A DNA stretch of 64,000 nucleotides, taken from NCBI GenBank assembly GCA_037447655.1, contig JBBHKE010000423.1:1-64000 (forward strand), written 5' to 3'. Source of the DNA: Zygnema cylindricum (lineage: Eukaryota; Streptophyta; Zygnematophyceae; Zygnematales; Zygnemataceae). Below, piece by piece: positions 8,285 to 19,502 of this stretch. Numbering within the stretch: position 1 is the first letter of the stretch; every line of letters starts with the position of its first letter. Under the pieces are notes generated by a model. That model saw nothing but the letters and a program-made list of their open reading frames with translations, searched no databases and was not told where the DNA came from. Position numbers and translations under genes: made by a program.

Positions 8285-9989
8285 TTATCTCAGTTTTGGA
8301 GTACAAATTTTCGCAATTGTACCAGACCTTTTGGCCACCGCAAGAACACTGCCAAGTGCACTTCTGGTACATGGGAACTTATTCAAAGTTACAAATGATG
8401 CAGGTTTTAGTTTTGTAAGAGTATTATCTTTGAAGTACTTATTATTCAGAAAACTACAAGTGGCTGTCCTTTCCAATGTGACCGCATTTCCCTTGCAGTT
8501 TTTTATTGCACCTCCAAGGTCCACACTGCCTAAGCAAACCTGCAAGCAAAAGAGATACAACAACCACAATAAACATTATGCGCCACACTTATTTCTTGTG
8601 CTTTCACGCGAATATGTGTTTGTAATGAAATGCGAACCTAGTTTAAAGCCAAAGGCAAAATGAAGGCCAATATAATCTAGAAAAGCAAATGTACTCTCAC
8701 ATCCTGTGACATTAATCTGTCAGGCTTAATCACGAAAGATGGTATACAAAACAAAAGTAATAAATGTGAAAATCTTTTTCTGTTAAGCTTCAACACGAGA
8801 AATAATATAATTCGTGTGCTCTGACATAATGACTATTGGTTATGGATTAAAAAAATCGAATAATTATTGATGTGTTTGAACTATTCTCACCTCTTGCCGA
8901 AAGGTGCTGTCATCGTTGGAATACAACTGGATACGACCACAATATACACCAGGGTTTAGAGTATAAAATGTTTTAACGTTTCCATCCAAATAGTTATGAA
9001 TAATGCTTGTACACGTTTCCCCCCGCTTAATGATGTATGGACGGGTACAAGGTCCTCGAAACGGTACTTTTCCCTTTGTAATGCAAATCTATAAAAAATG
9101 GATTCATTTTACAAACACAAACAAAATCATCAATACTTTGGATATCTGAATGAATTTACCAAGACACGAGAGCACAAAAAAATGTTAAAGACAAGAGAAA
9201 TTGACATTCCACTTTCCATTTACGTCCATTCATGCAACAAAATTAAAACTGTAGGGTCAAAGTGTTCCAAAGTCACCTGTTGGAAAGGTTTCAGATTTGA
9301 GCAATCTAAGTCCGGATTCGGTGAACCTGGGCCTCCGACAATTGTGTCGAGTCTGAAAGTAGTGTTTATGGATGCACATGTATCTCCCTGCAAATTCCGA
9401 TTTTGTATAGATCATCGATCGAAATAAATAAAAAAAATGAAGTTTTACAACACCATAATAATGGGGCCAAAAACTGGAACTATTATAGCAAAAAAAAAGA
9501 ATGGCTACATCAAAGCTTTAAGCATCCTGACAACAAATACAATGAGATGATAATCTGCATGGTTCGCAAGAACAGGAATTTACCTCTTGGACTGCATAAA
9601 ATAGGGAACATTCCATGGCGTTGGTGACATTAACTTTTGCACCTTTTGGAAGAGTTTGGTTGCAATTCAAGTTCTGAAACTCAGCCGAAATGTAATTTTC
9701 TAATGGTATTAGGCCAACATCAAAATATAATACATCTGTGCAAAATAGTCTACTGGCTTTGCACTAATCCCTTCCATACGACAATTGTTGTCGAGCAGTC
9801 ACTGAAAAACAAAACCAAGAGTTTGACATATGAAAGTAAAAAAAAAATGTATTAAAAGTAGTGGAAATGACACCTTGTTTTGTTTTAAAAAAAGTTGTTT
9901 CGGGATGCCGTATGTAGTGAAGATAGTCGCGCAAGAAATAGATCCACCAACTGGCACAACGTACTCCTTTGCCCCTATTGTAGAGGCGG
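8285..9989 (-). CDS. Gene A exons 13-17: four LysM repeats and C-terminus
   Basis: Exon 9874-9989 encodes YVVPVGGSISCATIFTTYGI, the first half of a LysM repeat; exon 9584-9673 completes it (NLNCNQTLPKGAKVNV) and starts the next (ECSLFYAVQE). Exon 9277-9387 begins GDTCASINTTFRLD, and exon 8891-9088 carries CTRPYIIKRGETCTSI. The last exon, 8285-8539, has a weaker fourth repeat (AVTLERTATCSFLN to LNKFPC) and ends in a basic tail. All five exons except the first start in phase 0. The G-D/E-T-C core and paired cysteines are typical of algal and plant LysM modules. Gene C holds copies of three of these exons. Confidence 0.8.
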
Positions 9990-18900: not shown

Positions 18901-19502
18901 TTCATGAATTTCCTCATTCTCTCCCCAATCCTTTACCTTTCCCGCCTCCATTTCCTAACTAGATCCGTGATCCCCTCATCCCTCCTTTTGTCACAAAGTC
19001 TCTCTTTTCCTCTCCCTCCACTTTCCCTACTTCCTTCCCTCTAATAGAAAGTTCCTTGTTCTTCCACAACTTTCCCTTTCCCCTCTCCTTTCCCTCTAAC
19101 CGGATCCACCCCCAAACCCCTTCTTTAAAACACACCACTTTCTCTCTCCCCTCCCTTCCCCCTCTCTCCTCCACCCCCCTTCCCCCCTCGCCATCCCCCC
19201 ATCCTGGCTCTGAAAGCGCATCGCAGCAGAGAGTGCCGCACTCTTCCAACCATGCATCCGTGCGGAATTCAGTGCAATATTCAGTGCGGAATTCAGTGCG
19301 AAATTCAACACGGAAGTCAGTGCGGGATTCAATGCGAGATTCAAGGCAGATTTCTCACGGTGGAGAGTGCACGCAGGGACAGTAACTCACACTCTATACA
19401 CGCGACGGGAATCGTCGCAATAGAAATGCTCGTCATCACATGTGAGTGCGGGAAATATCTCCTTGGTCGTGATCGCCGCCCTCACCGCCTCCAGAATCGA
19501 TT
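8285..19502 (-). CDS. Gene A: LRR - papain-like peptidase - EGF - LysM chimeric protein (multi-exon, one frameshift)
   Basis: Hand-spliced GT-AG exons on the minus strand, in transcript order: 19391-19502, 18147-18218, 17430-17501, 16836-16907, 16163-16234, 15152-15501, 14333-14518, 13839-14065, 13375-13512, 12900-13119, 12498-12680, 11551-11693, 9874-9989, 9584-9673, 9277-9387, 8891-9088, 8285-8539 (TAA stop). Reading phases agree at every junction. The encoded part is about 870 residues: LRR N-cap, LRRs, Cys-rich module, C1A peptidase, two EGF-like modules, four LysM repeats. LysM repeats bind N-acetylglucosamine polymers, so a secreted peptidase targeted to chitin- or peptidoglycan-like glycan is the natural inference. 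A signal peptide exon like those of genes B and C was not found upstream. Exon 11551-11693 has a 1-nt deletion, so the gene may be a young pseudogene or contain a sequencing error. Confidence 0.75.
10490..10690. repeat. Purine-rich GA tract inside a gene A intron
   Basis: About 200 bp of near-pure purine on the plus strand (GGGAGAGAG, GACAGACAGAGA) in the 1.56-kb intron between exons 11551-11693 and 9874-9989. The remainder of that intron shows nothing coding. Confidence 0.7.
11551..12680 (-). CDS. Gene A exons 11-12: two EGF-like modules
   Basis: Exon 12498-12680 reads SDLCNVRNYA, then NPCGNGICTSNSKTYTCKCM and ends TQTCAP, with the C-x-G-x-C and C-x-C spacing of an EGF-like fold. Exon 11551-11693 reads SRCTFTSRNPCGMGTCVD, then GTYACICSIGY. 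After GYLLDD one base is missing compared with the two gene C copies (144-bp exons, here 143), so the frame meets TAG instead of reading DGSLTC. The intron between them contains a (TA)n run at about 11745-11790. Confidence 0.75.
12900..14518 (-). CDS. Gene A exons 7-10: papain-family (C1A) cysteine peptidase domain
   Basis: Exon 14333-14518 ends ATSWNWVAQLPRSNIKDQYRC, supplying the oxyanion Gln. Splicing to 13839-14065 creates YRC-N-ICWITSAF, aligning with the papain CGSCWAFS motif, so the catalytic Cys is present; NCSINNCGVGGWP follows as the DC..CNGG equivalent. Exon 13375-13512 has LLLALQQQPAVVAIEA, and exon 12900-13119 has CFSNGVDHAVLVIGYD (catalytic His), then [20 protein letters not shown] (catalytic Asn). 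The mature domain is about 200 residues, slightly short for C1A. Only a short stretch before it (FSNKTNQFFRYASSG) could be the tail of an I29 propeptide; a full ERFNIN prodomain was not seen. Two active-site neighbours differ from consensus (GS to NI). Confidence 0.85.
15152..15501 (-). CDS. Gene A exon 6: last LRR and cysteine-rich EGF-like module
   Basis: This 350-bp exon starts RLNDNLLSGVIPFPLDSW, an LRR that departs from the 72-bp pattern, followed by DFTNNYLSGPVVV. A cysteine-rich part then includes CNAISGNC, KKCPSAVQRTKSQC and ACGGRGICPGLQKPCICDDD. Gene B has the matching exon at 57551-57834 (NNYFTGPVV, then GGPCGGAGVC). Both end in phase 1. Function is unknown; it probably caps the LRR solenoid. 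Confidence 0.7.
16163..18218 (-). CDS. Gene A exons 2-5: four single-LRR exons of exactly 72 bp
   Basis: Exons 18147-18218, 17430-17501, 16836-16907 and 16163-16234 are each 72 bp, bounded by AG and GT, and split the terminal Leu codon at the same position. They encode ALDARGMEGTIAREIGNLTR, SLPGNRLRGSIPSSIGQLKS, LLMANQLSGSIPSSIGQLTS and GLYNNQLSGSIPSSISQITS. The NxLxGxIPxxIGxLxxL pattern is the plant-specific LRR subtype. Because the exons are phase-compatible they could be lost or gained without a frameshift. The introns (about 600-650 bp) show no other coding sequence. Confidence 0.85.
18600..19200. repeat. Pyrimidine-rich tract in the gene A intron after the LRR N-cap exon
   Basis: About 600 bp dominated by CCTCCC/TCTCC on the plus strand. 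Open frames across it are low-complexity Pro/Leu/Ser and are rejected as genes. Confidence 0.6.
19250..19370. repeat. 12-bp degenerate tandem repeat (GTGCGGAATTCA) by the gene A N-cap exon
   Basis: Consecutive GTGCGGAATTCA-like units (GTGCAATATTCA, GTGCGAAATTCA, GTGCGGGATTCA) end just before the exon at 19391, that is, in the intron downstream of the N-cap exon. Scattered related words occur at 18495-18590. The same repeat sits at the same place in genes B and C. Confidence 0.75.
19391..19502 (-). CDS. Gene A exon: LRR N-terminal cap
   Basis: The exon reads ESILEAVRAAITTKEIFPAL, then TCDDEHFYCDDSRRVYRV after an AG acceptor (GCTGCTGCAG), with a GTGAGT donor. It aligns residue by residue with gene B 61774-61882 and gene C 35535-35646. 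The last two bases join the first base of the next LRR exon to make Val. Sequence similarity to gene C continues upstream only to about 19539; the expected signal-peptide exon is not recognisable in the next several hundred bases. Confidence 0.7.

Follow-up and report, generated by a model that had tools for sequence, protein, structure and literature searches.

Whether a single gene can join LRRs, a C1A peptidase, EGF-like modules and LysM repeats, and what such a protein might do, is the question raised by a locus on contig JBBHKE010000423.1 of Zygnema cylindricum. The window, the whole stretch of DNA that was analysed, is 64 kb long. The gene considered here, gene A, consists of 17 exons on the minus strand between 19502 and 8285, and its product runs from an LRR cap through LRRs, a Cys-rich module and the peptidase to two EGF-like modules and four LysM segments (Table 1). 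This architecture is real: Pfam analysis of the 871-aa product and exon homology bear out all of the domains named in the original prediction, in the predicted order. Our main reading, to which we assign a probability of about 0.6, is that gene A is a member – damaged, as assembled – of a family of secreted modular C1A peptidases in streptophyte algae that probably act in surface-bound proteolysis outside the cell.

All 16 introns of gene A have GT-AG borders. The exons had been predicted to splice in consistent phase throughout; this holds for 15 of the 16 junctions, and the sole break is at exon 12, where an X was placed in the corrected spliced product. An apparent frameshift in exon 14 was an artefact of the initial exon borders and was gone with the acceptor at 9673.

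Table 1. Exons of gene A and features of its two paralogues in the window
Feature	Position	Strand	Description
Gene A exon 1	19391..19502	-	N-terminal LRR cap (LTCDDEHFYCDDSRRVYRV); without start codon; phase in 1, out 2; homologues present in both copy B and copy C
Gene A exon 2	18147..18218	-	LRR, 72 nt, phase 2-2
Gene A exon 3	17430..17501	-	LRR, 72 nt, phase 2-2
Gene A exon 4	16836..16907	-	LRR, 72 nt, phase 2-2
Gene A exon 5	16163..16234	-	LRR, 72 nt, phase 2-2
Gene A exon 6	15152..15501	-	Final LRR and Cys-rich (EGF-like) module; links LRR and peptidase parts; matches P0001, P0002, P0005
Gene A exon 7	14333..14518	-	FRYASSGY segment (expected place of I29 propeptide) and C1A start with oxyanion Gln
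Gene A exon 8	13839..14065	-	C1A, catalytic Cys (CNICW)
Gene A exon 9	13375..13512	-	C1A
Gene A exon 10	12900..13119	-	C1A, catalytic His (VDHAV) and Asn (NSWG)
Gene A exon 11	12498..12680	-	EGF-like 1, phase 1-1
Gene A exon 12	11551..11693	-	EGF-like 2, 143 nt; 1 base short relative to both sister copies; in-frame TAG
Gene A exon 13	9874..9989	-	LysM1, first part
Gene A exon 14	9584..9673	-	LysM1 end and LysM2 start (corrected acceptor)
Gene A exon 15	9277..9387	-	LysM2
Gene A exon 16	8891..9088	-	LysM3; sole LysM stretch significant in Pfam
Gene A exon 17	8285..8539	-	Diverged LysM4 and stop codon TAA
Copy B	30679..35869	-	Decayed paralogue
Copy B signal-peptide exon	35767-35869	-	5' start exon
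Copy B exon 1	35535-35646	-	Has a stop at its end
Copy B EGF2 exons	near 34883 and 32456	-	Decayed paralogue
Copy B LysM exons	near 33701, 31480, 30929	-	Decayed paralogue
Copy C	57519..62089	-	Truncated paralogue
Copy C signal-peptide exon	61993-62089	-	5' start exon
Copy C exon 1	61774-61882	-	Homologous to gene A exon 1
Copy C LRR exons		-	At least 5, 72 nt each, plus Cys-rich exon

Peptidase_C1 (E = 5e-40, residues 292–498), LRR_14 (4e-11), LRR_1 (5e-8) and LysM (6e-7) were above the Pfam cut-offs in the gene A product; EGF (0.008) was below. The repeated exons follow the 24-residue consensus of plant-type LRRs, and the LRRNT_2 cap had a Pfam call in the relative P0002 but none in gene A. 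The active site is complete, with Gln, Cys, His and Asn all present as predicted, and the C1A domain matches plant papain sequences well, ficin among them. Most C1A peptidases, though not all, carry an I29 inhibitory propeptide; Pfam gave no I29 match at E up to 1 in gene A, P0025, P0026, P0027, P0029 or P0033, and PF08246 was absent from the precomputed domain lists of P0001, P0002, P0005 and P0032. The product had no kinase match in Pfam and no TM-like segment (top 17-residue hydropathy mean, 1.25). Scans of the window for tRNA genes and Rfam families gave no match. Of the four predicted LysM repeats, Pfam found one significant stretch only, but in a profile comparison across the family the LysM segments were mutually homologous in five of six pairs (94.8–98.2%), with LysM1-LysM4 the weak pair (50.7%).

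A single gene is by far the best reading of the locus, as first proposed. It would otherwise be two adjacent genes wrongly joined, with exons 1-6 coding for an LRR protein and exons 7-17 for a C1A-EGF-LysM peptidase, and there are observations that fit such a split: P0003, P0010 and P0028 are C1A-LysM proteins without LRR models, and copy C has LRR and Cys-rich parts while a peptidase was not found within it. Yet a copia LTR element lies ca. 0.9 kb downstream of copy C, following its last exon, phase 1 is kept from exon 6 to exon 7 of gene A, and the LRR and peptidase parts share one ORF in P0001, P0002, P0025, P0027 and P0032. P0001 (1178 aa) and P0002 (1041 aa) are EukProt ORFs of assembled transcripts, named complete by their source, in which LRR, Cys-rich, C1A, EGF-like and LysM parts are in one chain. 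We regard two genes as very improbable, in view of these transcript-derived relatives and the kept phase. A close relative with 56% identity likewise has exons 9-17 joined, on a contig of 1,664 nt.

The LRR-bearing peptidase is not unique to the window. LRR and C1 models occurred together in 3 of 22 proteins in one set of relatives and in 8 of 20 in another, and LRR, Peptidase_C1 and LysM occur together, in the order seen in gene A, within one ORF in P0001, P0002, P0027 and P0032. The named close matches are from Closterium, and some relatives add or substitute a legume-type lectin. A third protein search, with an LRR-to-C1A query and proteins of ca. 230–740 aa, covered 934 candidates, and none of them matched with an E of 0.001 or less. 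Of the 20 family rows in which the site is covered, 18 have the catalytic Cys, including all nine covering rows with Pfam LRRs, and the catalytic His and Asn are present in all 24 rows, gene A among them. The two exceptions, P0011 (presumably Mesotaenium, going by its record code) and P0028, have Ser in place of Cys; in P0011 this residue is at the start of the gene model, which is doubtful there.

In the C1A-EGF-LysM tree the LRR carriers are found in three clades, with P0006 counted as a carrier by eye for an LRR-like end without a Pfam call. This tree left out P0004, P0007, P0009, P0024, P0030 and P0031 from the 24 rows, and a second version left out P0011, P0025, P0028 and P0033 as well. 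On the tree of all 24 rows, where LRR-only proteins had a different label from LRR-plus-lectin ones, the number of changes required by the LRR label was 5, no better than shuffled labels; here P0033 was labelled LRR plus lectin by eye, with no Pfam lectin at E up to 1, and P0031 was labelled LRR-related by eye, without an LRR model.

Two decayed paralogues of gene A are present in the window, at 30.7–35.9 kb (copy B) and 57.5–62.1 kb (copy C). An LRR part or peptidase was not found in copy B, and the Cys-rich ORF of copy C matched nothing in Pfam at E up to 0.001 (a weak EGF-like match had E = 0.012). Both paralogues have a signal-peptide-like exon, judged by computed hydropathy, with matching phase. 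dN/dS was 0.52 between A and B and 0.30 between A and C, the latter with a dS of 1.70, near saturation. These ratios suggest that the exons were under protein-level constraint for at least part of their history.

The gene A copy looks damaged, and it may be a recent pseudogene, given the lesion in exon 12 and the lack of a visible signal-peptide exon. That the family is real while the full protein is no longer made from gene A has, in our estimate, a little less than an even chance. Copies B and C, themselves decayed or truncated, show exon 12 to be one base short, and the signal-peptide exon that they share was not detected by Smith-Waterman comparison in 19545-30500, upstream of gene A: the best scores there were 22 and 22, within the range of five shuffles each (19–32), while B against C scored 81. 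Upstream of exon 1 the frame is open as far as a stop, with no Met. In a T-rich tract at 19783, an ORF that includes a hydrophobic stretch is a candidate start exon; it could be spliced but has no homology. Against a pseudogene, the other 16 exons (1-11 and 13-17) are open with matching phases, a single-base lesion is what an assembly error would give, and the frame is free of stops if exon 12 is left out.

Members of the family would enter the secretory pathway, a prediction drawn from signal peptides in the paralogues and relatives only. LysM domains usually bind GlcNAc polymers, and the LysM tail may hold the protein on glycans of this type, while the LRR, or in relatives the L-type lectin, would pick the protein or surface encountered by the peptidase. 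Cutting proteins on the bound surface, outside the cell, would most likely be its job. A structural matrix protein, in which the peptidase fold served for binding and not for cutting, seems improbable to us: the missing I29 propeptide and the Ser residues of P0011 and P0028 would fit it, but the catalytic residues are otherwise kept across the family, gene A included, and the match to plant papains is good.

As to what a cutting enzyme is for, we lean towards antimicrobial defence over remodelling of the alga's own wall, because the recognition modules vary among the relatives and the copies in the window form a decaying array. A peptidase that remodels wall or mucilage for growth or sexual reproduction is the less probable use, though one that deserves weight. 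GlcNAc polymers, the usual LysM ligand, to our knowledge make up no major part of the walls in these algae, which argues against it. The secreted modular layout and the presence of several members in Closterium strains speak in its favour, as does the published link between C1A and LysM in non-vascular Archaeplastida (PMC6362431).

A more speculative proposal, and in our view an unlikely one, is that these proteins are secreted receptor-proteases of streptophyte algae. Recognition, which in land-plant receptors is relayed to a kinase, would lie in the LRR or the interchangeable L-type lectin, and the output would be direct proteolysis on the LysM-bound surface; the LRR and Cys-rich part may stand in for I29 in keeping the enzyme latent. 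If the proteins are active, the plant recognition folds LRR and LysM would be united with a protease in one secreted chain in algae near the land plants, which would be a testable alternative to receptor kinases in the use of such modules, as well as an instance of a papain whose propeptide has seemingly been replaced.

That LysM occurs with cysteine peptidases was rightly taken as known. The text of PMC6362431 (which we take to be Van Holle and Van Damme 2019), as far as it was available, describes C1A with LysM, and links of EGF with lectin, in non-vascular Archaeplastida. These proteins are like gene A in combining C1A with LysM; unlike in gene A, LRR is not mentioned in the parts of that text available. 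No paper on LRR, C1A and LysM together was found in the literature, judged mostly by titles and abstract openings.

Among the closest counterparts of gene A are P0001 and P0002, with 43% and 41% identity to it in region 160–560. They share its order of LRR, Cys-rich, C1A, two EGF-like and four LysM parts, but differ in having more LRRs, a hydrophobic N-terminus and no frame lesion. The Closterium gene models P0027 (NIES-68) and P0032 (NIES-54), 34% and 35% identical to P0002, also have LRR, C1A and LysM in one protein; unlike gene A, they have a long low-complexity N-terminal stretch. P0005, P0026 and P0029, also from Closterium, share LRR, C1A and the EGF-like part with gene A, but differ in a legume-type lectin domain placed after the LRR/Cys-rich part and before C1A; the LysM match is below cut-off in P0005 and P0026, and none is listed for P0029. 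Plant papains (ficin, chymopapain) are like gene A in the sequence of the C1A domain and in the active-site residues, and gene A differs from them in that no I29 propeptide was found and in its additional LRR, EGF-like and LysM modules.

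The joining of leucine-rich repeats (LRR), a C1A peptidase, EGF modules and LysM repeats in one protein is genuine, and is common to gene A, a minus-strand gene, and some of its relatives. The exon borders of gene A were re-derived from the window sequence and then adjusted by comparison with relatives. All 16 introns have GT-AG borders. The original prediction of 17 exons in consistent phase held at 15 of the 16 junctions; the sole mismatch is between exons 12 and 13. In the corrected product, the predicted LRR, C1A and LysM domains were all above the Pfam cut-offs – Peptidase_C1 at 5e-40, LRR_14 at 4e-11, LRR_1 at 5e-8 and LysM at 6e-7 – while the EGF models matched below theirs. 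The nearest solved structures to the peptidase by sequence are plant papains, with ficin at the top. LRR exons 2–5 are 72 nt apiece and phase 2-2, so LRR could be gained or lost without a change of frame.

Features of gene A, its two paralogues (copies B and C) and the repeats in the window
Feature	Position	Strand	Content
Gene A exon 1	19502-19391	-	
Gene A exon 2	18218-18147	-	
Gene A exon 3	17501-17430	-	
Gene A exon 4	16907-16836	-	
Gene A exon 5	16234-16163	-	
Gene A exon 6	15501-15152	-	
Gene A exon 7	14518-14333	-	
Gene A exon 8	14065-13839	-	
Gene A exon 9	13512-13375	-	
Gene A exon 10	13119-12900	-	
Gene A exon 11	12680-12498	-	
Gene A exon 12	11693-11551	-	EGF2
Gene A exon 13	9989-9874	-	
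Gene A exon 14	9673-9584	-	
Gene A exon 15	9387-9277	-	
Gene A exon 16	9088-8891	-	
Gene A exon 17	8539-8285	-	
Copy B	30.7-35.9 kb	-	start exon, exon 1, two EGF2 exons, LysM exons retained
Copy C	57.5-62.1 kb	-	start exon, exon 1, at least 5 LRR exons of 72 nt, Cys-rich exon retained
copia-type LTR element	51689-56653	+	gag, integrase parts; ORFs 52369-54255, 54177-55169; direct repeats 51689-52270, 56072-56653
copia-type fragment	39070-40667	-	reverse transcriptase (RVT_2, 2e-42) at 40056-40667
hAT transposase remnants	26568-27164	-	Dimer_Tnp_hAT, 2e-16
AT-rich array	41982-43794		ca. 31-bp units, TATAATTAGTATTAGTACAGTT type
ca. 200-bp element	5971-6191, 21358-21577, 37050-37231, 47219-47417		four copies

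That the LRR and the peptidase belong to one gene is well supported by transcript-derived relatives. The top two matches to residues 160–560 of the first gene model, a segment unaffected by later corrections, were P0001 (1178 aa) and P0002 (1041 aa), both named in EukProt as assembled-transcript ORFs. In each, a single chain combines LRRs with the Cys-rich module, the C1A peptidase and both EGF-like and LysM segments, which refutes, in relatives, a break between the LRR and peptidase blocks. This search found 22 proteins at E <= 0.001 among 2547 candidates, 3 of them with LRR and C1 models together. An alignment search, with scoring restricted to the 8000 candidates sharing most words, found 20 proteins at E <= 1e-20; by precomputed lists, 8 combine an LRR with a C1 model, and a LysM model is added in 4 of the 8. 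Family members bearing organism names are from Closterium strains. P0030, an ORF of 494 residues from a contig of 1,664 nt, shares 56% identity with gene A over exons 9–17 and reads through all eight junctions there. When the LRR-to-peptidase half was used in another search, among proteins of ca. 230–740 aa, there was no match at E <= 0.001 in 934 candidates.

Of 21 aligned members, all have Peptidase_C1, 19 LysM, 14 EGF, 9 LRR_8 and 7 a legume lectin (E <= 0.01). P0003 and P0023 have the lectin without an LRR model, P0005, P0026 and P0029 have both, and P0010, P0013 and P0015 have EF-hands; no lectin was found in P0033 (Pfam, E <= 1). The catalytic Cys and Gln are each present in 18 of the 20 family rows spanning the site, and His and Asn in all 24 rows. 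Serine replaces the catalytic Cys in two C1A-LysM relatives – P0028, which may be an inactive branch, and P0011, where it may be a gene-model error. No I29 propeptide was found in gene A or five LRR-bearing relatives (P0025, P0026, P0027, P0029, P0033) at E <= 1, nor in the precomputed lists of P0001, P0002, P0005 and P0032. In its place upstream of C1A is a segment around FRYASSGY, conserved among close relatives.

The predicted count of four LysM repeats is supported by family-wide profile comparison of the segments, though Pfam finds a significant match in only one stretch of gene A. LysM1-2, 2-3 and 3-4 scored 97.8%, 98.2% and 96.0%, LysM2-4, 1-3 and 1-4 scored 95.8%, 94.8% and 50.7%, and LysM against EGF or Cys-rich segments scored <2%.

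As it stands in the window, gene A is probably either impaired or the product of misassembly. Its EGF2 exon is one base short relative to both EGF2 copies of copy B, with the neighbouring stretch well aligned, and contains an in-frame TAG. Including exon 12 ends the reading frame at codon 607; omitting it leaves 823 codons up to the natural stop. The open frame of exon 1 has no Met, no signal-peptide exon like that of copies B and C was found upstream, and similarity to copy B ends ca. 42 bases upstream of it. These features may stem from an assembly error, from exon skipping or from a start exon of new origin.

Copies B and C each have a short exon further upstream whose product begins with a hydrophobic stretch resembling a signal peptide (ATG at 35869 in B and at 62089 in C); this exon leaves in phase 1, compatible with exon 1. 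Copy B has in-frame stops in exon 1, LysM1 and one EGF2, and no LRR or peptidase was seen in it. The A-B dN/dS was 0.52 over 277 codons (both EGF2 copies of B included, one stop codon excluded). For A-C, where the comparison was confined to exons 1 and 6 (138 codons), the value was 0.30 and dS, at 1.70, was near saturation; for decayed copies such ratios would indicate only constraint at some past time. A 12/24-bp repeat of the GTGCGGAATTCA type adjoins exon 1 in intron 1 of gene A (19260–19343) and in the copy B equivalent (35405–35498), and is probably older than the duplication since both copies hold it in the same intron.

Mobile elements are also present. The copia-type LTR element ca. 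0.9 kb downstream of the last exon of copy C has 582-bp direct repeats, 97.9% identical, and is probably a recent insertion. Two more ORFs upstream of the hAT remnants, up to 28812, had no Pfam matches. The AT-rich array sits in the lowest-GC 2-kb step of the window (25.5%). The ca. 200-bp element may be a small hairpin transposon, since two of its four copies (5971–6191, 21358–21569) self-match in inverted orientation.

The LRR label, partly assigned by eye (in the 24-row tree P0033 as LRR plus lectin and P0031 as LRR-related although it has no LRR model; in the smaller trees P0006, for an LRR-like end without a Pfam call), required 3 changes on an 18-row C1A-EGF-LysM tree (24 rows minus P0004, P0007, P0009, P0024, P0030 and P0031), with 9 of 500 shuffles equally low; the deepest forks of this tree are weak and the gene A branch is long. 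Without P0011, P0025, P0028 and P0033 (14 rows), it required 2 changes (8 of 500 shuffles). LRR carriers are spread over three clades. One old gain of LRR with losses afterwards would fit this pattern, but separate gains may also account for it. When LRR-only and LRR-plus-lectin proteins were given distinct labels on the 24-row tree, the LRR label took 5 changes and did not outperform shuffled labels (236 of 500 equally low).

The sequence itself shows the order of the modules and the catalytic residues, and relatives and paralogues support secretion of these proteins. Most likely, LysM would anchor the enzyme to a GlcNAc-type glycan, LRR or lectin would select the target, and C1A would cleave proteins at the bound site. 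Defence may have a small edge as the putative role because recognition modules vary among relatives and the local copies are decaying; wall remodelling is slightly less favoured.

Among the matches listed in the open-access literature, no description of LRR, C1A and LysM together was found, and the combination was absent from passages of PMC7289718, PMC11289646, PMC10834447 and PMC7941945. The architecture is, as far as searched, so far undescribed. The text of PMC6362431 does not contain the terms LRR or 'leucine-rich repeat'; it does report C1A peptidases associated with LysM in Archaeplastida outside vascular plants, and EGF alongside lectin domains. C1A-LysM proteins are already known, and the gene A family is a variant of that kind.
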